This document shows positions 9,022-43,179 of a stretch of DNA of 64,000 nucleotides, in pieces. The DNA is from Hyphomicrobiales bacterium (GTDB taxonomy: Bacteria > Pseudomonadota > Alphaproteobacteria > Rhizobiales > Rhizobiaceae). A model generated the notes under the pieces. That model ran no database searches, was not told where the DNA came from, and saw only the letters and a list, made by a program, of their open reading frames with translations. The DNA is taken from positions 13,217 to 77,216 of the forward strand of contig UCHD01000003.1 of NCBI GenBank assembly GCA_900472175.1, given 5' to 3'. The number at the start of each line of letters is the position of its first letter. The stretch's first letter is position 1. A program made the translations under genes and the position numbers.

Positions 9022-10535
9022 CAGGCTGCTCCCATCAATGCTTTGAATTTTAAATCGAGTTCGACGGATGCCTTGGCTTCCCGCGCAGCGTTTACCTGCG
9101 CTTCCGCGGCAAATGCGGAAGACTTGTTTCGATATGCGCGCAGCGCCTGCGCCATCGGCTCCGGTGCAGGCCCGCCGAAACGGGTGCGTACTGCAACGAA
9201 GTGCTCCGGCGAGACGAGTTCGGCAAACTGGTCCATATCGACTGAGGGCTTACGGCCCGTCAAAGCCTCGAATGCGGCCAAAAACGGAGCGTAACCGTCA
9301 TGTTCAAGGCCACCACCGCTGGCCACGACCGAGCGCGCCACCGACGCGGCGATCTCATGTGCCTGACGGAATGAGAGACCTTCGAGCCGCACCAGAGAAT
9401 CCGCAAGCTCGGTAATCGTGATGCAGGAGCGGCGGATGTTGATGGCGACTTTCTCGGGATCGATCCGGATCGCAGCGACGAACGAGGCCATCAGATCCAA
9501 CACCCGGCCGGCTGCGTGGAAGGCCTCATAGCCAACCGACTGTGTTTCGCCTTCGCTGTCGTTCATATCGGTGAACGGCGTGTTGTGCATGATATCGAGC
9601 ATCGTGCGGGCGCGGCCAAACGTCTGGCTGGCCAGAAGCCGCATATGCTCGATCGGCACCGGATTACGCTTCTGCGGCATGATCGACGAGATCTGTACCA
9701 GTGCATTCGGCACATAGATCTGGCCAACTTCGAAACTCGTCCAGAACTGAAAATCCTGAATAAGCCGGCCCATATGCAGGAACATCAGTTCGATGGCGCT
9801 GTAGGTGGAGGTGATATAATCGACGGCGGCAATGCAGCTGTATGAGTTCTGCAAGGCTGCGCGAAAGCCGAGCAATTCGGCCACTCTTGCCCGGTCAACC
9901 GGAAAGCCTGATGTGGTGATGGCAGCAGCCCCCATCGGGCTGAGATCGACGATCCGGCGGGCTTCGGACAAACGTTCGATGTCGCGGATGAACACCTCGA
10001 TTGCAGCTGACAGATAGTGACCAAATGTGGTCGGCTGGGCCGGCTGGCCGTGGGTATAGGCGACAATCAGGGTCGCCTTCTCGCGATCAGCAGCTTCTAT
10101 GAGTGTGGCGAGCAATGTATGCGCCTTGACCATCAGCGCATCGATACGCGCCTTCAAGCCAAGCTTGAACAGCGTGTGGTCGATATCATTGCGCGAGCGC
10201 GCGGTATGCAGGCGCCCCGCGACATCGGCCCCGATACGCGCTTTCAGCTCCTTTTCGATCAGGAAGAAGAAGTCTTCGACTTCGCCGGTATAAACGAGCC
10301 CGGCCGGATCAACCTCGCGATCAATTGCCTCAAGCGCCGCGGCGATCTTGGAGGCCTGCGTCCAGTCGAGGATGCCGGTTTCAACCAGCATTACCAGATG
10401 CGCACGGTCGATGCGCCGGAAACCATCGACATGATGGGTCTTGGCGCCGTCGAAAAGCGGACGCAGCACCGTTTCCTTATAGACCGGATCGGGAAAGACG
10501 CTTTTGTCGTTCAGGCGTGGATTGCTCTCGGGCAC
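9021..10535 (-). CDS. Argininosuccinate-lyase homologue in a sugar operon
   Basis: A 504-residue member of the argininosuccinate lyase/fumarase superfamily, longer than housekeeping ArgH (about 460). Superfamily motifs are present: TARSRND (111-117), THGQPAQP with the His (161-168) and the mobile signature loop SSIMPQKRN (283-291). The start is GTG at 10535, preceded by AAAGGA. Superfamily members eliminate fumarate from a C-N or C-O bond on a succinyl/malyl group. Placement between a sugar permease and the MalK-type ATPase, far from arginine genes, argues for a catabolic role on an imported compound carrying an aspartyl, succinyl or malyl group. That substrate is inference; a spare ArgH is the alternative. 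Confidence 0.82.
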   Translation of the reverse strand: MPESNPRLNDKSVFPDPVYKETVLRPLFDGAKTHHVDGFRRIDRAHLVMLVETGILDWTQASKIAAALEAIDREVDPAGLVYTGEVEDFFFLIEKELKARIGADVAGRLHTARSRNDIDHTLFKLGLKARIDALMVKAHTLLATLIEAADREKATLIVAYTHGQPAQPTTFGHYLSAAIEVFIRDIERLSEARRIVDLSPMGAAAITTSGFPVDRARVAELLGFRAALQNSYSCIAAVDYITSTYSAIELMFLHMGRLIQDFQFWTSFEVGQIYVPNALVQISSIMPQKRNPVPIEHMRLLASQTFGRARTMLDIMHNTPFTDMNDSEGETQSVGYEAFHAAGRVLDLMASFVAAIRIDPEKVAINIRRSCITITELADSLVRLEGLSFRQAHEIAASVARSVVASGGGLEHDGYAPFLAAFEALTGRKPSVDMDQFAELVSPEHFVAVRTRFGGPAPEPMAQALRAYRNKSSAFAAEAQVNAAREAKASVELDLKFKALMGAA

Positions 10536-10539
10536 TGTC

Positions 10540-11394
10540 TTATCCTTTCAGACCGGCCAGCATGACGCCGCGCACGATGTAGCGCTGCAGCACCAGGAAG
10601 ACGAGCAGCGTCGGCAAAGTGGCAAGTGCCGCGCCGGTCATGATCATTTCCCATTGAATGGATTGCTCGACGGCAAAGCTCGAAAGCCCGACCGGTAGCG
10701 TATAGAGTTCACGGCTGGTCACCACGATCAGCGGCCAGAAAAAGGCTGTCCAATTGCCAAGGAAGGTGAAGATCGCCAGCGCAGACAGAGCCGGAGTAAC
10801 CAGCGGCATCGCCACTTTCCACCAGATCTGGAATTCGTTGAGGCCATCGATACGGGCGGCCTCCAGAAAGTCGTTCGGCACCGTTTCGAAAAACTGTTTC
10901 ATCAGGAAGGTGCCGAAAGCCGTCATCATGCCAGGGAACATGATGCCCCAGTAGCTATCCAGCCAGCCGAGCTGGCTCGACATCAGATACCAGGGAATAA
11001 CCAGCATTTCCGTCGGGATCATCAGCGTCGACAAGATCGCCAGAAAAATCAGCTGGCGGCCGCGAAACGCAAATTTGGCAAGCGTGTAGCCGACGAGACT
11101 GTCGAAGAATACGTTCGACAATGTTACCGTGCAGGCGACGATGGTGGAGTTCAGGAACCAACGCATGAACCGGCCATCGGAGAGCACGGTGATGTAGTTC
11201 TGCAGTGTCGGAGCGGCCGGGATCAGCCGCAAATCGTAGACTTGGCTTGCTGTCTTCAGCGATGTGGAGAACATGAACAGCAGTGGCGTGATCATCACAA
11301 GGCCGCCAATGAACAGCAGCGTCCAGACAATGATGCGGCCGGGGCGAATATTCGCTTTGGCGAGCGGCGCGGTATTCTGGGCAAGTGCCGTCAT
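10540..11394 (-). CDS. CUT1 sugar ABC transporter permease (UgpE/MalG type)
   Basis: A 284-residue inner-membrane subunit with six predicted hydrophobic segments and the EAA loop EAARIDGLNEFQIWWKVAMP that contacts the ATPase. The N-terminal segment (WTLLFIGGLVMITPLLFMF) and the ending on a basic cytosolic tail are as in MalG-like permeases. The ATG overlaps the stop of the partner permease by four bases, and the lyase starts four bases after it. It forms the channel with the gene at 11391. Confidence 0.93.
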   Translation of the reverse strand: MTALAQNTAPLAKANIRPGRIIVWTLLFIGGLVMITPLLFMFSTSLKTASQVYDLRLIPAAPTLQNYITVLSDGRFMRWFLNSTIVACTVTLSNVFFDSLVGYTLAKFAFRGRQLIFLAILSTLMIPTEMLVIPWYLMSSQLGWLDSYWGIMFPGMMTAFGTFLMKQFFETVPNDFLEAARIDGLNEFQIWWKVAMPLVTPALSALAIFTFLGNWTAFFWPLIVVTSRELYTLPVGLSSFAVEQSIQWEMIMTGAALATLPTLLVFLVLQRYIVRGVMLAGLKG

Positions 11395-12338
11395 TTGCGT
11401 TCCCTCAGTATCCAGAGCTGCAGAAGTGACACAGCCAGCAGGATGGCAAAGAGCACAACAGTTTGCGCTGCCGCATAGCCCATGTTGTAGGATGAAAAGG
11501 CCGTCTGATAGATCATCAGCACCAGCGGTTTGGTTGATCCGAGCGGGCCGCCCGGATCATTGGTCGTCATGTTGTAGACCTGATCGAAAATGCGCAGGAA
11601 ACCGATCGAAGAAAAGACGACAAGAAAGACGGTGGTGGGCTTTAGCAGCGGCAGCGTGATTTTCCACAGGATCGGCCATTCGCCTAATCCATCAATTTTC
11701 GCCGCCTCGTAATAGGTCGAGGGAATGGCGCGAAGACCAGCCATGAAAATGATGATCTGAAACCCGAGGCCGGCCCAGATCGAGGTCACCATGATTGACG
11801 GCAAAGCCTGATCGACGGAGCGTATGAAGGCTTGCTGCGGCAGTCCGATCAGGCCGAGCACGTCGTTGATGACGCCAATCGGTGCCGGTTGATAGAACCA
11901 ACGCCAGACCCAGGCCATAGCGGCAGCCGTCGTCAGAAACGGCAGGAAATAGAGAGCCCTGATCAGCCCATGGAGAATGCGCACCCGATCGAGATAGAAA
12001 GAGATCACGAAGGAAATCAGCAAGCTGACCGGCGTGCCGATAATCAGATAGGTGAACGTGTTGCGAAAAACCTTCCAGAATTGCGGATCATTGTAGAGCT
12101 TCACGTAATTGGCAAAGCCGATGAATTTCGGCGGCTTCATCAGGTTCCAGTTGGTGAAGGACAGATAGAAGGCCTGCAGTGTCGGGTAAAACCGGATGAC
12201 GCAGTAAAACAGGATCGGCAGGGCCAGGAATGTCCAGACCCAAATGAGGCGCTTGTGGCGCATGGATAGCCGATCCCAAAGGGATGCGGCGGGGCGGCGC
12301 GCGGCCGTCCCATCCGTATTTCCAGGTGCGGAGCTCAT
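11391..12338 (-). CDS. CUT1 sugar ABC transporter permease (UgpA/MalF type)
   Basis: A 315-residue inner-membrane subunit. A cytosolic N-terminal tail precedes the first membrane helix (WTFLALPILFYCVIRFYPTL), and the EAA loop is EAAKIDGLGEWPILWKITLP. It is the second gene after the binding protein, with nine bases between them, and overlaps the next permease by four bases. Length and topology match the MalF/UgpA class without the large periplasmic loop of E. coli MalF. Confidence 0.93.
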   Translation of the reverse strand: MSSAPGNTDGTAARRPAASLWDRLSMRHKRLIWVWTFLALPILFYCVIRFYPTLQAFYLSFTNWNLMKPPKFIGFANYVKLYNDPQFWKVFRNTFTYLIIGTPVSLLISFVISFYLDRVRILHGLIRALYFLPFLTTAAAMAWVWRWFYQPAPIGVINDVLGLIGLPQQAFIRSVDQALPSIMVTSIWAGLGFQIIIFMAGLRAIPSTYYEAAKIDGLGEWPILWKITLPLLKPTTVFLVVFSSIGFLRIFDQVYNMTTNDPGGPLGSTKPLVLMIYQTAFSSYNMGYAAAQTVVLFAILLAVSLLQLWILRERK

Positions 12339-12347
12339 GGCTTGCCC

Positions 12348-13604
12348 TTATTTGGTCTTTGCAGCGTCGATGATCTCCTGCTCGGCTGTTGCAGCCTGAG
12401 CAATGGAGTCCTCAGGAGACTGCTTTTCCAGCAGCACGCGATTGACCATGTCGATGGCCGTCTGGCGCTGGGCGGCTTCGTCGACAAACAGCGTTGTGTG
12501 AGCGTAATCCAGCGCCTTCAGGAACGGTGAATAGATCGGATCGGCCAGATTGGCCTCGGTCAGAGCGGCAGAGCGGCGGGCTGGCAGTTCGCCGACCGTA
12601 TCCAGCCAGACCTTCATGGCTTCCGGCGAAGAGATGTAGGCAAGGAACTTCTTCGAAGCTTCGAGCTTCTCGCCGCTCACCTTGGCACCGATGCCATTGG
12701 CAAAATAGCTGGCGTAATTCGAACGTATGCCCGCGGCATTGGTCGGCAGTTCAGTAACACCCCATTCGAAGTCCTTGATGCTCTTGAAGGAGCCGAGACG
12801 GAAGGTGCCGTCGATGGTCATCGCCGCACGGCCAGCGCGGAAAGCAGCCTGGCCTTCATCCATGAAGCCAACCTCACCAACCTTCTGTTCGGTCTGCAGG
12901 TCTGTGTAGAACTTCAGCGCCTTGATGCCAGCATCGTTGTTGTACGTTACCTTGGAATAATCGGCCGTATACGGCTCGCCGCCGTTCTGGCGGATCAACA
13001 CCTCACGCCACCACTGGTGGTCCTGCCCGGCCATATCCATCGTTGTGCCGGCCACGGTCATATTGCCATTGGCATCATGCTTCGCAGTCTTTTCAGCGGC
13101 GGCAACGAATTCATCGACCGTCTTCGGAGGGCTCTTCGGATCGAGGCCAGCTTCCTGGAATAGCTTCTTGTTATAGAACAGCGCCAGCGAACGAACGGCG
13201 GTCGGCAGGCCATAATAGTCGTCGCCACGCTTCATGGCAGAGACGATCGGAAAGAACTCGCTTTCGATCTTGTCGTGCGGAAAAGCATCTACAGGCAAAG
13301 GCTGGACGAGACCGCCGGCGATGAACTGGTCAAGCCAGCCATAGAAAAGCTGCATTACATCGGGGCCACTGCCGGACATGTTGGCGGCAACGACGCGGGT
13401 CTGGTAGTCGGCATAAGGGAATGTTGTCTGCTTGACGGTAATATCCGGATTGGCCTTCTCGAAATTCTCGATCAGCTGATCCATCGCCTTGACGCGGGTT
13501 TCGTAGACATACTGCCAATATTCGATCTCAACAGCCTGGGCACTGTTGACGGCAAAGACGCTAATACCCGTAAAAAGACCGGCCAATAGAATTCCGCGAC
13601 GCAT
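12348..13604 (-). CDS. Extracellular sugar-binding protein (family 1)
   Basis: A 418-residue periplasmic solute-binding protein. The start at 13604 is set by a perfect AGGAGG six bases upstream and by the signal peptide MRRGILLAGLFTGISVFAVN ending before AQAVEIEYWQ. The body shows the family pattern (ENFEKANPDITVKQTTFPYA, LPTAVRSLALFYNKKLFQEA). It is the first gene of the transporter operon, divergent from the ROK regulator. The ligand is probably a sugar or sugar conjugate; the motifs do not say which. Confidence 0.93.
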   Translation of the reverse strand: MRRGILLAGLFTGISVFAVNSAQAVEIEYWQYVYETRVKAMDQLIENFEKANPDITVKQTTFPYADYQTRVVAANMSGSGPDVMQLFYGWLDQFIAGGLVQPLPVDAFPHDKIESEFFPIVSAMKRGDDYYGLPTAVRSLALFYNKKLFQEAGLDPKSPPKTVDEFVAAAEKTAKHDANGNMTVAGTTMDMAGQDHQWWREVLIRQNGGEPYTADYSKVTYNNDAGIKALKFYTDLQTEQKVGEVGFMDEGQAAFRAGRAAMTIDGTFRLGSFKSIKDFEWGVTELPTNAAGIRSNYASYFANGIGAKVSGEKLEASKKFLAYISSPEAMKVWLDTVGELPARRSAALTEANLADPIYSPFLKALDYAHTTLFVDEAAQRQTAIDMVNRVLLEKQSPEDSIAQAATAEQEIIDAAKTK

Positions 13605-34943: not shown

Positions 34944-36272
34944 CGTCGAACGACATCGCCGCCTGCGCTGTATTGACACTCGGCTTTGCTGTCGGATCTT
35001 TAGACCCCTCACAGCCAGCTGTTGTCTGGGGATTGTCCCTTCCTTCACTGGACAGCGTCAATCATGCCAATCCAGGTGGCCGCCCGACGGGCGGCATTGG
35101 CCAGAACAGGTTTAGGCGCCTTGTACCATTCGTTTTCCGGTAACTCGCGCTTGAGGCGAACAAAGGCTATCGCATCGTCGAGCGTTGGGAATTCCTGCGG
35201 CACAGTCAGGTGCAGAAAGAGCGCAACAACGGCAACGGAGCGGGAGCGGGAGCGGCCGTCGTGGCAATGGGGGCCGACGATATGAAAAGCATTGCACACG
35301 TGTTCATTTCTTTCAAGCCACCTCTACCTCGATAAATTAATCGGGTGGCAACGGTGTGTCGTGACGCGCATCCGGTTGGCACCCATGAGAGCGCGGTCGC
35401 GCAACACGTTGGCCGCATCGTGGAGTGACAGGCGGATGGGGATAGGCGTATCGGTGGCTCGCGGCAGTCATCAGATTGTCGGAAAACGGGACTGTAACGT
35501 CCGGATCACGGTCGCAGTACCTTTGGCGTCAACTGCATCTCGTCGATGATGCCGTCGTCCAAGCGAATGGTGGCTGCCGATTGGTGAAGACCGTGTTTGC
35601 ATCGTCGGGCAGGTATAGCCAGGGCGCGATCTGCCCCGAGCCAACGCCGGCAACACCACGCCGGTGCCAGGAAAATGTTTCAGCCTTGCCAGCACCGCCC
35701 GGTCCAGATAGGGCACGGCGCGATAGCCAGACGGGCGCGGTGGAGAATTGAATTCTCGTTTGCGTCCGCGGCATCAGCGACGTCGAAGAAGGCGGTGCTG
35801 ACGGCTGGGAGGTATGGCCTCTTCACGGCGCTGGATGCTGAACTCCTGTGGCTGTCATAATACCGGCCGGGAATGGCCAGCCTCGATCACCGTCCCCCGA
35901 ATCCACAACGCTAAACTCTGTGGATCCGGGATCAGGCGCCCCAGCTTCGGTGACCTGGATACCCGTGATCGAATGGGTCTCCTGCGGATCGACGATGAAG
36001 GGCAGCGGCAACGTTGTCGCCTTGCTGTCCATCACCGTATCCTGCAACGGCAGGACAGGCTCGCCGAGGTTCATGACGTAGAGTTCGCCCGCTCCCGGCA
36101 TTGACCAAGTCTCCCATCGCCGATCGATAAGCGACCATGCCCGGAATCGCATGTCCGGACTGTGAGCCACCTCACACATGTTTTCTAAAATAAGGAATCA
36201 GAGATATTCCCTTGTCGGAGGGGGGGATCGTCTGGCAAGCTTACGCAACTTCAGCAGAAAGCGGCCTTCGTC
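34944..36272. other. Eroded region with gene remains
   Basis: About 1.3 kb with no intact gene. Short stretches keep protein-like character in shifting frames on the minus strand: a tyrosine-phosphatase-like piece (35045-35299), a piece around 35471-35774 and a 118-codon frame (35823-36179, containing ITGIQVTEAGAPDPGSTEFS) that I cannot assign. None has a supported start. The pattern suggests old, frameshifted genes. Confidence 0.45.
35045..35299 (-). pseudogene. Possible tyrosine-phosphatase-like remnant
   Basis: The 84-codon frame holds HCHDGRSRSRSVAVVALFLH, a match to the HC-x5-R active-site loop of dual-specificity and tyrosine phosphatases, and then a helical tail (FPTLDDAIAFVRLKRELPEN). 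The N-terminal half of such a protein is missing or out of frame. It is probably a decayed gene. Confidence 0.35.
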
Positions 36273-37031
36273 ATGGGTAGGAAGAGTTTTGTTGCCGACA
36301 AGATTGTCTGGTTGGATTCCCACCGGCCTATATCCCGGCGTGCGAGCAAAAGCAAGCAAAGCCAATCCCGGGAGGCAGCTGAAGGCCACGACCAAAGCTC
36401 CTCCGGGCGTGACCTCTTCGATCTCCTGTTTGACAATTGCGTCACCGACCGGGTGCCGGCCGGCAAGCATCTCTTCCTGCAGGAAGACAGATCTGATCGG
36501 GTATACGGGTTGATCGAAGGCTCGATCGAAATCTCGATCTATTCGATCGATGGCCAGAAACTCGTCGCCAACATGCAGACGGCGCCGACACTCATCGGCG
36601 AGATTGGCGCGCTTGATGGCGGCGTGCGTACGGCAACGGCGACATGCCGGACCGATTGCGTGATTGTCTCGCTGGACCGCAATGAACTGCTGCACCGCAT
36701 CGAAGAAAGTCCGCTGCTCGCACGCTCCATGCTGCGCCTCCTGTGCGACAGAGTCCGCTGGGTCAGTGAGTCGTTGGGCGACCATGCCTTTCTCGATGTC
36801 GAGGCCAGGCTAGCCAAGCGATTATTGCTGCTCGACAAGCTATTGGCTGCCCCCTCCGGCTGGATTGCCATCTCGCAAAGCGAGGTCGCCGAGTTCCTCG
36901 GATCGACGCGCGAGTCCGTTAACAAACTCTTGACGAGTTGGCGCAGCCGAAACCTCATCGAAGTCAAACGCGGCCATATCAAGCTGGTCAGCCGGCCTCG
37001 CCTTCGCCAGTTGCTGACAGAGAGAGAATGA
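36273..37031 (+). CDS. Crp/Fnr-family transcriptional regulator
   Basis: A 252-residue regulator. It has a cyclic-nucleotide-binding-type beta-roll (about 55-150; GKHLFLQEDRSDRVYGLIEG, MQTAPTLIGEIGALDGGVRT) and a C-terminal Crp helix-turn-helix (ISQSEVAEFLGSTRESVNKL). The N-terminus has no FNR-type cysteine cluster, so oxygen sensing through an iron-sulfur centre is unlikely. The first 45 residues are basic and not conserved, and the true start may be further in. It converges on the P450-peroxidase gene, six bases apart. A class III cyclase lies at 41-43 kb, so cAMP or cGMP control is possible. Confidence 0.9.
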   Translation: MGRKSFVADKIVWLDSHRPISRRASKSKQSQSREAAEGHDQSSSGRDLFDLLFDNCVTDRVPAGKHLFLQEDRSDRVYGLIEGSIEISIYSIDGQKLVANMQTAPTLIGEIGALDGGVRTATATCRTDCVIVSLDRNELLHRIEESPLLARSMLRLLCDRVRWVSESLGDHAFLDVEARLAKRLLLLDKLLAAPSGWIAISQSEVAEFLGSTRESVNKLLTSWRSRNLIEVKRGHIKLVSRPRLRQLLTERE

Positions 37032-37037
37032 ACCGCG

Positions 37038-40000
37038 CTAAGCGCCGCCGCCCGCAGCATCCAGCCGCGAAAGCATGTAGCGCAGCGCTGCCCGGCTTGG
37101 CAGGAAGAAATAACCGCCGCCCCGCGTGGTGATGAACGACGGTATACCCTGCAGTGCAAGCGATCCTTCCCAGCGCGGCAAGGCGAAACGGCCCCTCGGT
37201 TTCCCCCCCGCGCCAACCTTCTGAGTGCCGATCAGCGGATCCTTCTCGTCGCGCAGGCCGTGAAAACTGCCCGAGGCCATCCAGGTCTGCTGGATAAACT
37301 CGTACTGGCGTTCGATGCTGGCGTTGACGCACATGAACAGCAGTCCCTTTTCCGCCATACCGTCCGCGCCGGTCGCTGCGTAGGTCCTGCCAACGCGGAG
37401 GATGCGATGGCGCTTGGTTATGCGGATCTCGGTGTCGAGGTCCGTGTTCAGGGAGGCTCGCGGATTGGAGCGCCGCACGTGGGCGCCGAGCGGGCATCTC
37501 AATCCCTGCGGATCCTCGGCGCCAAAGGTAAAGCGGTTGTCGGGTGGGTCGCCGGAGGGCCGGTGCGGACTCTTGATCAGCGAAGAACCGTCCTTCCAGC
37601 GCCCGACAATCCGCGCGCCTACCCAATCGGCCGATACTGCTTCGCCTGTCAATTTCCCGACGTTCTCGGCGGCGGTACGGCAGTAATTTTCAAAGACTTC
37701 GACATGCTGCTGGAGTTGGCGGACGACAACGAAACTCCCGTTGCGCCCAAAATCGTGCCAGCGGGATTTTGCCGCCGTGATGCTACCGTCGACTTCGATT
37801 GCACGCAGGATGCCGAGCGGATCAGTATGTCCGGGAACTGTTGGGCCTGGCGGGTAAAAACCGTGCTCGTCGCGGTAGCCGAACAGGAATTCGCCCGGAT
37901 TGAGCAGATGCATCGCATGCACGGGGCTGCCGGTATCTTGCCAGCTTCCACGCAGGATCGGCTGGGAAATGCCATCCTGAAAACCGAAATGATCACGCCC
38001 CTTGTTGCCGTCGCCTTCAGAGCCGGCTGGTTTGACCGACAGTTCAAGGCGATGGACGGGCACGACGCCAACTTCGCGAGAAACTGCTTCCATCTCGCGC
38101 ACCATGCCGGCCACGGTTTCCGCAGAGCCGGCATAGCAGTTGACGATCACGTCGACAGGGTTGCCACCAGCGCCCCAGGACCATCCGGCCGGGTCGTTCG
38201 GCCCCCAGTCATCGAGGATCCGGCTTCGATAGGGGTTCGCCATGCCCTGACGAAAGGCGAGCGGAAAGCTCGCCAGCGCATCCGCCTCGCTTGCACCTTC
38301 CGCCCCCACGCCGAGCCGGCGAAGCCCATCGGGTCCGAAGAAGGCCATCATGGCGCGTTCCGCTGGCGCTGTGTCGCCGAACGACAGCTTTTCGGTGACA
38401 TAGGCCAGCCAGCGTCGGCGCGATGCCGGGTCGAGACCATCCGGCACGCGAAATGCCAGCATCATGCCATGGCTGAGGCGCCCCAGCGGGCCGAAGACGA
38501 TCGACTGTATCTCGCCCTGTTCGATTATTTCGGACGGAGCCGCATCTGGCAGCAGCAGCCGTTGCACAGCATTGAGACGCGTGCGCGGCTGCCGCTCGGT
38601 GGACGAGAACAGGCTTATCCAGTCACGCGCCTCACTCAGCCGCGCCGAACAGATACCTTGCCTGATCAGCGCGTTCGTGCGGATATGCGCGGTCGAAATC
38701 CGGGGATAGGCGCTGTACCAGAAGCCGGTCGGAACCTGCTGGGTCCGGGCCCAGCGCTTGAAACGGTCGCCGTCGCGCGCGCCGTTGAAGAACAGGAATT
38801 TCGTCGACGGGAAACCTTCGGTATTGCTCCACACACCGGTCAGCCCAGCGGATGCCTTGGTGATGAAGTCTTCAAGATAGCTCTCCCAGCTGCCGCCGTA
38901 ATTGCTCAGAAAGACGAGCCGGTTCGTGCCGGGAATGCGAACCCAGCGGGCGAAATGGATCGTACCGATCGTCGAGAGAAAGCCCGGACGGAAGATGTGG
39001 GTGGCGGAAATGGAGATCAGATAAAAAGTGAGACGTAGCAACAGCATGCGGAAACGGCCCGCCTTGATGGCGGACACGGCTGTCATATGGTTCTGGAATT
39101 CACGGTCCTCGCCCTTCTGAAGCCCTTCCAGGCGCTCCGGCGAGACCGAATCCGTTGCAGGCTCGCAAGCCGCCTCGATACGGCGAAGCCAGACAATCGC
39201 GAGCGTAAGGGTAATAGAAATTGTCGTCAGGATGCCGAGGCCGGCCAAGACGAGCGCTGTACCCAGCCGCAAAAGAAAGGCCGGCCACGACGCACCTGCC
39301 CCAAAGACGAGATGGTAGGTCAGGTACCAGCACAGCGCGTAGACAAGAACCAGCGTGATGGTGAATGGCTTTGCCAACACAGTCTTGCGAACAGCACTCC
39401 ACACGCCCTTCGGCTGTTCAGCCAGCCCATTGGCGGCAGGGGCAAACGCCCAGTCGAATTTTCGCCTGTCACGCAGCTTTTTCCGCACGTCTGTCAGGAT
39501 CTGGGCAGCATCACCGCCGGGCCTCGCGGAAACCTTTTCGACGATACGCATCGCATGCGCCGCCAACAAAGCCTCGCGCCGGATGCGCTCGACCGTGTGG
39601 CCCGGCGTGCCGCCGAAGACGAGGCCGTTGAGGCTGCCGAAATAGGGAGAGACGTTTTGCGAATATCGGTCCAGGAACGCGGCAAGATCTGCATCGACGA
39701 CTTCGCGCGCAACGCCTTCAACGATTTTTCGCAATTGTGGTTCTGACGCCTGCGCAAACGCCTTCAAGACGGTTTTCTTGTCGCCATCCCCGCTCATCTC
39801 CATGAGCAAATGGTGACTTGGTGCCCCATCATCTCCGGTGTCGATGAGCGACATGCTGGCGAAGTGGACAATGCCCGCCTTGTCGAGCCCGATCTTCATA
39901 TCACCGGTGCAGGGGTTGCCGAGTGCATCCAGCTGTGCCCGGACCGCTTCTACCTCGACGCCTTGTTTTGCCGGCATGATGACCGTCACCATCGACTGCT

Positions 40001-41309
40001 GGTTTGCGGGATCGAATTCCACCATGAGTTTTTCAGGGTATGGACCAAGCCGCTGTAATCGCCCCGCCCTGCCCGCCGCGCGCCGGAAGCCGGGCTTTGA
40101 GAACAGCGCACGCAGGCACTCGCCCGTCTGCACCCGCGCCAGCAGAGCACCGATACACTTGTGGATGCCGTGACCGAAAATCAGCGATTGATGGTCTGGC
40201 CTCTGAGGCCGGAAATCCCAGGCATCGGCTACCGCCCGCGTGTCAAACATGGCCGAACGCGTGGCTGGCCAGACCACCGTATCGCCTTTGATCGTATAAG
40301 GCTTTCCACGGTCGCCTCCGATCCTCTGATCATGCCGCGCATAGCGCCAGGGGCTGATCCAGATCGGCTTGAAGCGCATGGCCTCGACGACGGCAAGATC
40401 CAGCCGCTTGTTATCCGACACGGCAACCGCTGCTTCCATCTCGTTAAAAACCTCGGCACGCGACAGCGCGACCTCGAGACAATTGCCGCCACCGAGCAAG
40501 GTGGTGGGTCCAAAACCAGTGATCATGCCCATCATGATGGCATGGATGTCCGGCCGGCCGATGCGTCCCTGTTGCATTGCCCCGACCAGCCGGTCGAGCG
40601 GCCTCTCCTGCAAGGTTCCGGCGGCGATGACTGCATCGATTGACCTGTCTATCGCTGCGCCAATCTCTCGCGCCGCCGCGATCGCCAACTCACGCACCAC
40701 AACATCTGCGGCCGGGTCGCCGAAGAAAACCGTGCTGAGCGCTATCGCCCAATCGGCAAACTCTCCCTCGTCGTCTACCGTAATGCCATAATATTCGCGG
40801 CAAATTGTCGAGGAAACGATACGGAAGAGATCCCAGGCCGCATTGAGCTTCGTGCCGGCGCCATCGACAATTTCGCGCGCGCGGCGTGCCGCGATCGGCC
40901 GTACGCGTTCTTCCACTTCGGCTGGTGGAAATGCGCTCAGTACGACCGATTTCAGACGCCGGTAATCCTCGCCGTCGTTCATCCCGAGAATGAAATTGGC
41001 GCCACCGGCGAACTCCATCATTTCCGGTCCGTAGGGTGTCTCGAAATCGGCTTGGCGCTCCAGCACCTCACGAACGTCGGCATTGCGCGTCAAGAGCACG
41101 AAACGTCCGCAGCGCGCCCGCGGCCAAACCCTTCGCAGCACGGAAAGCCACCAATCGGGATGCTCGATAAGGTAGCCTACCGCCCGCGCTAGCAACCCGC
41201 TGGACCGCATGCGCTGTAAGTCGAACGGCGGGACCTTAGCCGTGATGGGGCGTTCGGCCTGCGCCTGCGCCAGACGCTCAAAATATTTCGGGCTGCATTT
41301 GAAAACCAT
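37038..41309 (-). CDS. Cytochrome P450 - membrane - DyP peroxidase fusion
   Basis: A 1,423-residue protein with two haem-enzyme halves. Residues 1-430 are a cytochrome P450: ExxR motif EAMR (309-312) and haem-thiolate motif FGHGIHKCIG with Cys385. Residues 450-640 have no family I can name. Hydrophobic segments at about 649-670, 675-708 and 755-770 indicate membrane anchoring. Residues 780-930 are another uncharacterised domain (FLSNYGGSWESYLEDFITKA). Residues 930-1423 are a DyP-type peroxidase with GFQDG (distal Asp1112), GRNGSFVVVRQLQQ (distal Arg) and CPLGAHVRRSNPR with the proximal His1277. The ribosome site AAGAGG precedes the ATG. It lies 82 bases downstream of the class III cyclase on the same strand. 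The two haem enzymes could share a lipid-like or aromatic substrate; function is unknown. Confidence 0.87.
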   Translation of the reverse strand: MVFKCSPKYFERLAQAQAERPITAKVPPFDLQRMRSSGLLARAVGYLIEHPDWWLSVLRRVWPRARCGRFVLLTRNADVREVLERQADFETPYGPEMMEFAGGANFILGMNDGEDYRRLKSVVLSAFPPAEVEERVRPIAARRAREIVDGAGTKLNAAWDLFRIVSSTICREYYGITVDDEGEFADWAIALSTVFFGDPAADVVVRELAIAAAREIGAAIDRSIDAVIAAGTLQERPLDRLVGAMQQGRIGRPDIHAIMMGMITGFGPTTLLGGGNCLEVALSRAEVFNEMEAAVAVSDNKRLDLAVVEAMRFKPIWISPWRYARHDQRIGGDRGKPYTIKGDTVVWPATRSAMFDTRAVADAWDFRPQRPDHQSLIFGHGIHKCIGALLARVQTGECLRALFSKPGFRRAAGRAGRLQRLGPYPEKLMVEFDPANQQSMVTVIMPAKQGVEVEAVRAQLDALGNPCTGDMKIGLDKAGIVHFASMSLIDTGDDGAPSHHLLMEMSGDGDKKTVLKAFAQASEPQLRKIVEGVAREVVDADLAAFLDRYSQNVSPYFGSLNGLVFGGTPGHTVERIRREALLAAHAMRIVEKVSARPGGDAAQILTDVRKKLRDRRKFDWAFAPAANGLAEQPKGVWSAVRKTVLAKPFTITLVLVYALCWYLTYHLVFGAGASWPAFLLRLGTALVLAGLGILTTISITLTLAIVWLRRIEAACEPATDSVSPERLEGLQKGEDREFQNHMTAVSAIKAGRFRMLLLRLTFYLISISATHIFRPGFLSTIGTIHFARWVRIPGTNRLVFLSNYGGSWESYLEDFITKASAGLTGVWSNTEGFPSTKFLFFNGARDGDRFKRWARTQQVPTGFWYSAYPRISTAHIRTNALIRQGICSARLSEARDWISLFSSTERQPRTRLNAVQRLLLPDAAPSEIIEQGEIQSIVFGPLGRLSHGMMLAFRVPDGLDPASRRRWLAYVTEKLSFGDTAPAERAMMAFFGPDGLRRLGVGAEGASEADALASFPLAFRQGMANPYRSRILDDWGPNDPAGWSWGAGGNPVDVIVNCYAGSAETVAGMVREMEAVSREVGVVPVHRLELSVKPAGSEGDGNKGRDHFGFQDGISQPILRGSWQDTGSPVHAMHLLNPGEFLFGYRDEHGFYPPGPTVPGHTDPLGILRAIEVDGSITAAKSRWHDFGRNGSFVVVRQLQQHVEVFENYCRTAAENVGKLTGEAVSADWVGARIVGRWKDGSSLIKSPHRPSGDPPDNRFTFGAEDPQGLRCPLGAHVRRSNPRASLNTDLDTEIRITKRHRILRVGRTYAATGADGMAEKGLLFMCVNASIERQYEFIQQTWMASGSFHGLRDEKDPLIGTQKVGAGGKPRGRFALPRWEGSLALQGIPSFITTRGGGYFFLPSRAALRYMLSRLDAAGGGA

Positions 41310-41391
41310 GGCTGCCTCTTTGACCCTGATGGTTTCAGCAATCGGCCTAGCGTAGCGCTGCCTCTGTGAAATGCGTCACAGTTGCCCGCTT

Positions 41392-43161
41392 TTATTCACC
41401 GGCCAGCTGGAAATTCTCGATCATGCTTTGATTGACGGAACGGTCCTTGAAGGGAATCCATTCGATCCACCGGCGTTCAAATTCCGGATGACGGGTGCGG
41501 AAGAGATTTGCCTCCTGCCGCGCCTCTGCAAAATGTTCGTTGCGCGCCAAGGCGCCCGCCTTGAGATAACTTGCGTAGAAATAGTTGGGTGCAAGCGACA
41601 ACGAGCGGTCCGCCGCCTCGATTGCCGCCGGCCAGTTTTCATCAATGGTGTGAGCGGCGGCAAGCTCGCCGAGATTGTGGAAAAGATAGGGTTCAAAGGG
41701 GCTGAGCCGGATCGCCTCCTTCAGGTTGTGAATGGCATCGCGTGTCTGGAGCAGCAGGCCCCTGGCGCTACCAAGCCCCGTCAGCGCAAGCGAAAAGCTC
41801 GGGTTGATGTCAATCGCCTGATGGAAAAGGTCAACGGCAGAATGCGGTCGAGCTTCCAGAATTTCGACGAAACCGAGATAGCAGTAAGAGCGGGCGTCAA
41901 GACTGTCCATCAACGCGGCACGGCGGGCATAGTTGGCGACGATCTTCAATTCATCGCCGTCGGCGAAATTCAGCCAGGATTTCCAGAGGTGCCACCACGC
42001 CAGCTCGTTCAGGGCGGCGCTGGAATTGGGATCCTCGTCATACGCCTGCCTGAAATAGGCTTGCGCTTTTTCGGTATCCTCGGAAGAGCGCCGCCGCATG
42101 TGCCAGCGTCCCCGGCGCACCAGCTGCCAGGCCGATAGCGCCTCCGGCGGCACCTGGAACGTGCGGATTTGCTCGACACGGTCACACTCGTTTTCGAGGC
42201 GTGCGACGATCTCGCCGCCAAGCTCCCGTTGCAAGCGCAGCAGCTCCTCGAAAGCGCGCTCAAACCGGCCGGTCCAGATGACGCGGGAGTTGGAACTGTC
42301 GGCAAGCGCCGCGTTGAGGCACAGCTGCGCCGCGTCGCCGGAGACCGCGCCTGTCACGACATAGCGCGCGCCCAGCAGATGACCGATTGCAGCGGTCGTG
42401 AGGGAGGGGTCGCGGAACTGGAAGCTCGAATCCCGCGATATGACCGGAACAGAACGTGTGTTGGCCACGCCCGTCAAAATGTCGTCGGCGATGCCATCGC
42501 ACAGGTAGGCAAGACGTGGATCGCCGGTCAGGTTCTTGAAAGGCAGTACAGCCAGCGCCGGCAAATCGCCTTCCGCCTTGAGCCCTCCCTGCCCGTTCTG
42601 TCTCTCCACAAGCATGGGCAGGGCGGAATTGCCACCGTCCGTGCCCGAGATGAATACCCGCACGGGGACGGAGATGTTCTTCAGCTGAAACGGACCAAGA
42701 TCTGTGAACGACAGTTTGAACTGCTGTTGAAGCTGCGAATGCGCGGCCTCGGTCAGTGCAGTTCCACCGTGCGGCGAGAATTCCTGCACCCGGGCGGCGA
42801 TGTTCACCGTATCGCCGAATACCCCATCATCGCGAATGATGACCTGGCCGGCGCTGATGCCCGTCCGGAATGGCATCTTCCGGTCAGGTGCAACCGCGCG
42901 ATTGACCGCATCGATCGCAGCCTGGAACTGCAACACGGCCTGCAGCGCGACGATAACGTTTCCAAAGAGGGCCATGATGCTGTCACCCGCCGCCCCGAAC
43001 GTATTACCGCCGGCCCGCTCAACGGCCTCGACGATCAGGGCGCGGCGTTCGTCGAACAGCCGCAGCGCCTCCTCCTCATCGATATGCATGAGCTTGGAGA
43101 ATCCGACCGCGTCAGCGGAAACCACTGTCGCAATCTGCCGCGGATGCCGTTGTTCACGCAT
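41392..43161 (-). CDS. Class III adenylate/guanylate cyclase with TolB-like and TPR domains
   Basis: A 589-residue protein. Residues 1-170 are a class III nucleotide cyclase catalytic domain, with metal-binding Asp17 in VVSADAVGFSKLM, Asp60 in GDSIMALF, and the NIAARVQEF block. A TolB-N-like segment follows (about 200-330; ALAVLPFKNLTGDPRLAYLC), then TPR repeats (about 370-560). This three-part layout is common in rhizobial cyclases. A GTG six codons upstream is an alternative start. It is upstream of the P450-DyP gene, possibly in one transcript. No sensor or membrane domain is present, so input probably comes through the TPRs. Confidence 0.9.
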   Translation of the reverse strand: MREQRHPRQIATVVSADAVGFSKLMHIDEEEALRLFDERRALIVEAVERAGGNTFGAAGDSIMALFGNVIVALQAVLQFQAAIDAVNRAVAPDRKMPFRTGISAGQVIIRDDGVFGDTVNIAARVQEFSPHGGTALTEAAHSQLQQQFKLSFTDLGPFQLKNISVPVRVFISGTDGGNSALPMLVERQNGQGGLKAEGDLPALAVLPFKNLTGDPRLAYLCDGIADDILTGVANTRSVPVISRDSSFQFRDPSLTTAAIGHLLGARYVVTGAVSGDAAQLCLNAALADSSNSRVIWTGRFERAFEELLRLQRELGGEIVARLENECDRVEQIRTFQVPPEALSAWQLVRRGRWHMRRRSSEDTEKAQAYFRQAYDEDPNSSAALNELAWWHLWKSWLNFADGDELKIVANYARRAALMDSLDARSYCYLGFVEILEARPHSAVDLFHQAIDINPSFSLALTGLGSARGLLLQTRDAIHNLKEAIRLSPFEPYLFHNLGELAAAHTIDENWPAAIEAADRSLSLAPNYFYASYLKAGALARNEHFAEARQEANLFRTRHPEFERRWIEWIPFKDRSVNQSMIENFQLAGE

Positions 43162-43179
43162 CAGAGCAACGTCCCCCAC

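Follow-up and report, generated by a model that had tools for sequence, protein, structure and literature searches.

The window analysed here, a 64,000-nucleotide stretch of contig UCHD01000003.1 from a Hyphomicrobiales bacterium, carries on its minus strand (37038-41309) a gene whose 1,423-residue product joins a cytochrome P450 to a DyP-type peroxidase. Based on open reading frames and domain searches, the chain is ordered as P450, repeat X, membrane hairpin, repeat Y and DyP peroxidase. We assign a probability of about one half to the reading that this fusion protein is a cyclic-nucleotide-induced, peroxide-driven, membrane-anchored two-haem oxidase. The architecture, the intact catalytic residues, the gene cassette, the Crp boxes and the co-occurrence of box and crp gene were read directly from the sequence, from which we infer the chemistry and the substrate of such an oxidase. 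The strongest new fact is the cyclase-Crp circuit around the gene, which is absent from the first-pass annotation of the window.

First, we consider the integrity of the gene. The frame starts with ATG and runs without interruption; the plus-strand reading of the same positions contains stops. The layout proposed in the first-pass annotation, i.e., a P450, central hydrophobic segments and a DyP on one frame, is borne out by domain searches and hydropathy. P450 and DyP are found on one open frame at 37 distinct loci (L and G numbers denote loci and genomes of our survey). These are what remains of 40 collected fusion rows, since L090, L091 and L081 are copies of L015, L017 and L029. The Pararhizobium qamdonense locus L033 is part of this recount and absent from the shuffle, crp-upstream, tree and residue-conservation sets. 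For the whole gene, the ratio of nonsynonymous to synonymous substitution rates (dN/dS) is 0.08-0.14 between the window and L014, L018, L020 and L015, with repeat Y as the tightest part of the chain (0.04-0.05). By this measure the fusion frame is under purifying selection.

Next, we studied the P450 domain (residues 32-433; 40011-41216, minus strand like all parts of the fusion gene). PF00067 matches residues 303-401 above its cut-off (E 8.6e-7), and the phmmer match of the P450 part to the Protein Data Bank (PDB) spans 92-413 (3wvs, 8.5e-16). The full haem-thiolate motif claimed earlier is present, with Cys385 (codon 40155-40157) and ExxR at residues 309-312 (40374-40385). Among 16 aligned P450 sequences Cys385 is invariant, and within ExxR this holds for E, A and R alone. 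In a larger alignment of 38 fused rows (37 loci, the window counted twice) and 16 split or stand-alone P450s, the Cys of the FGxGxxxCxG loop and ExxR are kept in 54/54 rows. The I-helix reads G-F-G-P-T in the window (40503-40517) and G-F-x-P-T in the fused P450s of 37/37 loci. That is, all fused P450s retain the Thr and have Pro in place of the I-helix acid of the O2-activating type. For the 16 split or stand-alone P450s, the same position holds 10 Pro, 4 Asp, 1 Glu and 1 Ala. The nearest solved P450s are macrolide-type bacterial hydroxylases (best 60 of 630 PDB matches). In CYP152 peroxygenases an Arg-Pro replaces the acid-alcohol pair; a CYP152-type enzyme was ruled out, since both the Pro-Thr motif and the PDB neighbours differ.

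With regard to the oxidant, the available text of PMC9112060 states that the acid-alcohol pair delivers the proton for compound I in O2-driven P450s, and that of PMC13049297 that hydroperoxide-isomerising P450s need no redox partner. Inspection of the surrounding frames by eye, with no domain search of each, revealed no ferredoxin or reductase gene. Because of the Pro at the acid position and the lack of a visible redox partner nearby, peroxide use is likely for the fused form of the P450. The earlier suggestion of a peroxide-linked oxidation or a peroxide-shunt P450 can be kept to this extent; an allene-oxide-synthase-related protein in 3/11 P450-less relatives (see below) is in accordance with it.

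The peroxidase domain (residues 937-1413; 37071-38501) was identified by profile and PDB searches. It exceeds the cut-offs of TIGR01413 (E 2.8e-29, 102.4 vs. 100.5 bits) and PF20628 (2.7e-4, 21.2 vs. 20 bits), such that both halves of the chain lie above the thresholds of their families, and it matches the PDB DyP 8re3 with E 2.3e-39. As annotated in the first pass, the domain shows GFQDG (residues 1109-1113; 37971-37985), the proximal His1277 (37479-37481) and a distal Arg, which we could place at Arg1305 (37395-37397). The Asp of GxxDG and these two residues presumably have the roles known from the DyP motif. In an alignment of repeat X to DyP from 18 sequences, His1277, Arg1305 and, apart from its Q, the whole of GFQDG with Asp1112 are invariant. 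The counterpart of Arg1305 in 8re3, 7anv and 4g2c is the Arg after the proximal His, and a gap shifts the 2d3q alignment at this place. The DyP half is predicted to be a haem-binding peroxidase. It has the profile, fold, GxxDG, proximal His and distal Arg in common with these four stand-alone DyPs and differs from them in being fused behind a P450, ABM-like repeats and a membrane hairpin.

The centre of the chain comprises repeat X (residues ~438-600; 39510-39998), the hairpin with hydrophobic segments at residues 643-671 and 675-709 (39183-39383) and repeat Y (residues ~738-905; 38595-39098). The hydropathy segments confirm the membrane part noted before. With regard to the stretches 450-640 and 780-930, for which no family could be named in the first pass, the predicted fold now suggests two copies of one ABM-like domain, while a sequence-profile match is still missing. 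That X and Y are two copies of one ferredoxin-like domain follows from profile comparison, because hhalign relates the X and Y alignments with 96.9% (1.6e-10) and the Archangium copies match each other by BLAST at 1e-15; a direct BLASTP of the window's own X vs. Y gave no alignment. An AlphaFold2 model of residues 438-935 from 20 sequences (predicted local distance difference test, pLDDT, 80.3; predicted template modelling score, pTM, 0.78) has the same order of strands and helices in both repeats. When compared with VIA-align, the modelled X+Y pair is closest to the polyketide protein WhiE-ORFI (9lmn; Z 14.1, 218 residues, root-mean-square deviation 4.1), followed by the polyketide decarboxylase Abx(+)O (9ltx; Z 10.8), 3mcs (Z 8.5) and an anthrone-oxidase-like protein (Z 5.3). 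WhiE-ORFI and Abx(+)O thus resemble the predicted fold, but there is no sequence-profile match and the window chain has a membrane hairpin between the repeats. A Pfam EI24 match over the membrane part was rejected (16.6 bits, below the cut-off of 32).

In Bradyrhizobium CB82 and G380, two and three stand-alone Y-type proteins, respectively, precede a DyP, which suggests that Y-type repeats plus DyP may be the older unit. In L084 and L038, tandem stand-alone Y-type genes are found before the DyP gene, each with a gene for DUF4331 and Polyketide_cyc2 nearby.

We then investigated the genes next to the fusion gene. Directly upstream lies a 595-residue gene (41392-43179, minus strand) for a class III nucleotide cyclase followed by a TolB-like part and TPR; the TolB-like label is our assumption and had no Pfam match. 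Downstream, a convergent gene (36273-37031, plus strand) encodes a Crp/Fnr-type regulator with cNMP-binding and Crp helix-turn-helix domains. The TolB-like/TPR gene is found directly upstream on the same strand at 37/37 fusion loci with a spacing of -73 to +298 bases. Its N-terminus is a class III cyclase in 33/37 loci and SARP-like in the remaining four (N. aromaticivorans, Sulfitobacter, L066 and L067; 38-47% mutual identity), where the name SARP is taken from the RefSeq annotation in N. aromaticivorans. The convergent crp gene follows the fusion gene in 32/33 cyclase loci and 0/4 SARP loci. In the window, PF00211 matches the upstream gene with 34.5 bits (cut-off 21.9). The catalytic residues of the cyclase (two metal-binding Asp, Asn and Arg) are kept in 32/32 rows, as are the cNMP-binding Glu/Arg and the recognition helix of Crp (32/32 rows; 31 fusion loci and L072), given the residue roles that we take them to have. 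The regulator scores 69.9 bits with NF008732, the NCBI equivalog of E. coli CRP, i.e., below the cut-off of 266. Beyond these three cassette genes, neighbours are mostly unshared between the window and 19 named loci. Since the window's own genome contains 15 class III cyclase matches, the cyclase neighbour alone is less telling than the set of box, crp and cyclase.

A pattern scan identified two perfect Crp boxes, namely at 41365-41380 between cyclase and fusion gene and at 36161-36176 upstream of crp. Within the gap before the fusion gene, 32/32 crp-containing loci have a box; 27 of these boxes are exact and 5 deviate by one mismatch, and the exact one of L104 is located within the 3' end annotated for the cyclase frame. 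In the five loci that lack crp, namely Bosea L022 and the four of SARP type, the best box in the gap is 4-5 mismatches off. None of 160 mononucleotide-shuffled gaps comes within one mismatch of the box. In the window's own genome (5.46 Mb), the exact box occurs at exactly 2 places, both in the cassette, and the reversed control pattern at 0. Twelve other fusion genomes hold 1 to 7 exact boxes each, two of which flank the fusion gene in 9/12; G846 and G812 have one exact box just before the fusion gene, and the best that G805 offers at this place is a box with one mismatch. In four genomes that lack the fused chain, the number of exact boxes is 0-3. Upstream of crp, a box within one mismatch is found in 15/31 loci. 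Scans of three regions for FNR-type boxes and for a third pattern gave no signal in the gap comparable to that of the Crp box. Taken from these counts, a cyclase-Crp switch of the fusion gene is well supported, and we expect Crp to bind at the predicted boxes. As in E. coli cAMP-CRP regulation, Crp domains and the classical consensus box come together; unlike there, cyclase, regulator and target share one local cassette and the perfect box is found only there in the own genome.

Further observations concern the surroundings of these boxes. Upstream of the cyclase genes, the third pattern (TGTT-N8-AACA-type) is found above control at 0-1 mismatch (11/32 vs. 12/160 shuffles). The box before crp sits at the junction of crp with a 118-residue remnant (35823-36179, minus strand) of a gene of ~800 residues, which is long and divergent from crp in L015, L018, L020 and L033. 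In L033, this gene heads a run of large hypothetical genes that may share the switch. For the large downstream genes of relatives that were tried, no Pfam or PHROGs family was found except one insignificant SH3 match, and the one compared with the PDB had no convincing match.

To place the chain among its relatives, we surveyed its distribution. It is encoded as one frame in 4/26 genomes of the window's genus (own genome included) and in 35/61 genomes of the Mesorhizobium-like genus of G489, of which a 36th (G842) matches the DyP part alone. Fused genes also occur in Shinella, Bosea, Aquamicrobium, Zhengella and Notoacmeibacter as well as on plasmids of Pararhizobium qamdonense and Novosphingobium aromaticivorans, where they are annotated 'cytochrome P450' or 'Dyp-type peroxidase domain-containing protein'. 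A Sulfitobacter plasmid encodes a longer fusion of 1,620 residues (L037:6225-11087). Based on repeat Y, the family is found in 8/385 genomes of the class and 18/398 of the phylum (the window's own in each) and is uncommon in both. The taxonomic survey called for in the first pass finds the single chain again at the 37 loci, while distant lineages split its parts. The P450 gene precedes a gene for repeat X to DyP in Novosphingobium L028, Sphingobium L032 and Parvularcula L025 as well as in L083; the order is X-hairpin-Y, DyP, P450 in Archangium L030/L031, G014, G659 and G400. The split-gene locus L072, from another family, has a cyclase gene and a crp gene as well, with one exact box and one with one mismatch between crp and P450. 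In a DyP tree (without L037), P450-DyP chains take two places, with 32 cyclase-type rows in one clade (support 99) and three SARP-type rows apart. A single clade of all P450-DyP chains is not rejected by the approximately unbiased (AU) test (p 0.128; six rows omitted, cyclase-type rows thinned to 14). The fusion may have arisen once or several times.

Among 60 DyP rows, 11 have no P450 in the stretch examined. In three of these (L068, L070, L073), a protein of ~400 residues accompanies the DyP, as a neighbour in L068 and L073 and within the same chain in L070, where another copy is encoded separately. A profile built from these four sequences matches the coral allene oxide synthase-lipoxygenase in the PDB (1u5u 8.5e-9, 3dy5 1.2e-7) and 3e4w (2.2e-5; presumably a mini-catalase, with the PDB name 'putative uncharacterized protein'), and nothing else up to E 1. 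The relation rests on this profile, since Pfam and NCBIfam gave no match and the single-sequence search only catalase 1m7s (E 0.97). Hence, a relative of catalase-related allene oxide synthase stands with DyP in three P450-less loci; the window's fusion protein itself has no such domain. L070 also contains an animal haem peroxidase (1.7e-68), L068 and L073 contain GMC oxidoreductases, and one of the three relatives carries alpha/beta hydrolases.

Some features of P450-less loci stand on their own. The L070 frame (9688-12390) is a second kind of DyP fusion, located near the animal haem peroxidase gene. A family of ~150 residues is present in all three allene-oxide-synthase-related loci (L068:8070-8513, L070:3684-4151, L073:10484-11062); the two members scanned have no Pfam match. 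The Rhizobium plasmid loci L035 and L036 hold P450-less X-hairpin-Y and DyP genes, with S8 peptidase, phospholipase D-like and CHAT genes near in L035 and a DNA/RNA endonuclease gene near in L036.

Given these observations, the two-haem oxidase could work as follows. The cyclase of the TolB-like/TPR protein would make a cyclic nucleotide, which the neighbouring Crp would take up before docking at the box ahead of the fusion gene and, in about half of the loci including the window, also at the box ahead of its own gene. The fusion protein would use peroxide rather than O2 and a redox chain. Its two-helix hairpin would place both haem domains on the same side of the membrane, probably the cytosolic one. 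Paired with each other, X and Y would form one ABM-type barrel in which a hydrophobic substrate is held or oxidised in advance. The haem of the DyP would be the site of reaction for H2O2 or an organic hydroperoxide. The same substrate would be rearranged or peroxygenated by the P450, which lacks the I-helix acid. An unsaturated lipid hydroperoxide is our favoured candidate; the lipid-like substrate already considered in the first pass is plausible. In this scheme peroxide as oxidant, the role of X and Y, the order of the haem steps, the membrane side, the nucleotide, Crp binding at the boxes and the substrate are steps reached by reasoning from the sequence.

Several results weigh against this reading. 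With regard to the enzyme, the split P450s of Archangium (two), Parvularcula and L074 keep the Asp, and since several split P450s thus retain the acid, its loss is not family-wide. Moreover, the loss is no proof of peroxygenase action, because the acid-alcohol pair also aids peroxide-driven formation of compound I (available text of PMC9112060). The X+Y assignment is to be read as a fold match to tandem ABM-type proteins and not as family membership, because Foldseek is weak (best E 0.011; 9lmn E 0.017) and sequence profiles give no convincing match, i.e., no Pfam ABM match to the fusion protein at E 1 and a best E of 0.2, over the membrane part, in a PDB profile search with X-hairpin-Y. The model of residues 438-1423 is weak (pLDDT 67). 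Aromatics and quinones are likewise substrates of ABM and DyP enzymes, and the allene-oxide-synthase-related protein was not found in the other 8/11 P450-less stretches. With regard to the switch, a box is missing from the 330 bases ahead of 16/31 crp genes, other genomes contain the reversed control pattern 0-3 times each, and a one-mismatch box is also present at the split locus L075, although the stretch examined there shows no crp. Finally, the DyP tree groups the cyclase-type loci in a single clade, so that their shared cassette reflects conservation by descent and not many independent events.

The main competing explanation, which we consider unlikely, is a tailoring oxidase that acts on an aromatic or quinone metabolite, where a polycyclic aromatic substrate would be oxidised successively by the ABM-like barrel, the DyP and the P450. 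It takes first place among the alternatives because the nearest X+Y folds are polyketide enzymes, i.e., WhiE-ORFI (ABM/SchA-like) and Abx(+)O with the anthrone-oxidase-like protein further behind; the macrolide-type hydroxylases among the P450 neighbours fit as well, and DyPs classically bleach anthraquinones. However, a fold match does not show function, and inspection by eye of the genes next to the fusion gene revealed none recognisable as part of a polyketide or aromatic pathway. The allene-oxide-synthase-related protein in 3/11 P450-less relatives, in one case along with alpha/beta hydrolases, also speaks against this explanation.

Somewhat more doubtful is a role in stress response or detoxification, where the DyP would remove peroxide near the membrane, the P450 would oxidise xenobiotics with an external redox partner and the cyclase would sense envelope or oxidative stress. 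In its favour, DyP peroxidases consume peroxide, a dedicated cyclase-Crp pair is predicted to regulate expression, the I-helix Thr is retained and some split P450s have the acid. Yet this leaves unexplained why P450, two ABM-like repeats and DyP are linked so consistently and why the acid is lost in 37/37 fused P450s, and no gene for the redox partner was recognisable by eye nearby. An anti-phage defence module of the cyclic-nucleotide (Pycsar-like) type is highly improbable: a class III cyclase does adjoin a cyclic-nucleotide-binding protein, with weak PADLOC matches to PycC (8.6e-4, 16.8 bits) and PycTIR (2.5e-9), but these are confined to the cyclase and cNMP-binding stretches, the receptor has a Crp DNA-binding domain and DNA boxes instead of a toxic effector, and the fusion protein matches none of the PADLOC models. 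A sequencing or assembly error or a chance joining of two genes is refuted. The first-pass annotation would have conceded its case if close relatives encoded the halves as separate genes and the frame came from such an error; this applies by half, since distant relatives do have separate, mostly adjacent genes but 37 distinct loci hold P450 and DyP on a single open frame, with dN/dS of 0.08-0.14.

Returning to the peroxide-driven oxidase, its closest analogues are fungal linoleate dioxygenase-P450 fusions (linoleate diol, epoxy alcohol and allene oxide synthases), which likewise have two haem enzymes of different chemistry per chain and join a redox-partner-free P450 to a peroxidase-type haem domain; according to the available text of PMC13049297, that domain belongs to the peroxidase-cyclooxygenase superfamily, where the window chain has a DyP. 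The An_peroxidase domain, a hallmark of linoleate diol synthase/Ppo, has no Pfam match in the fusion protein, which is no member of the fungal group because it lacks this animal peroxidase domain. The domain order of the fungal chains is reversed, and we know of no counterpart to the ABM-like repeats and the membrane hairpin in them. Within the literature searched by title and abstract opening, most subscription papers being outside this scope, no description of a P450-DyP fusion was found. The more far-reaching claim, i.e., that the system is a bacterial counterpart of fungal and animal dioxygenase-P450 lipid-mediator systems, independently built from a DyP, a tandem ABM-like barrel and a peroxide-using P450 to make an oxidised lipid on the command of cyclase and Crp, is tentative, with the odds against it.

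With these results, database labels such as 'cytochrome P450' or 'Dyp-type peroxidase domain-containing protein' can give way to a named cassette. They also provide a Crp regulon whose two perfect sites are open to testing in a single strain, as well as a new unit, i.e., two ABM-like repeats with a DyP, which reappears together with P450 genes and in a few loci together with genes for allene-oxide-synthase-related proteins or animal peroxidases. If the proposed reading is true, rhizobia and their relatives possess a membrane enzyme, so far unrecognised, in which peroxidase and P450 chemistry are coupled and no redox partner is needed; its self-contained cyclic-nucleotide switch would make both inducer and product findable. 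The peroxidase-plus-P450 solution of the fungal oxylipin enzymes would then have arisen again from other parts.

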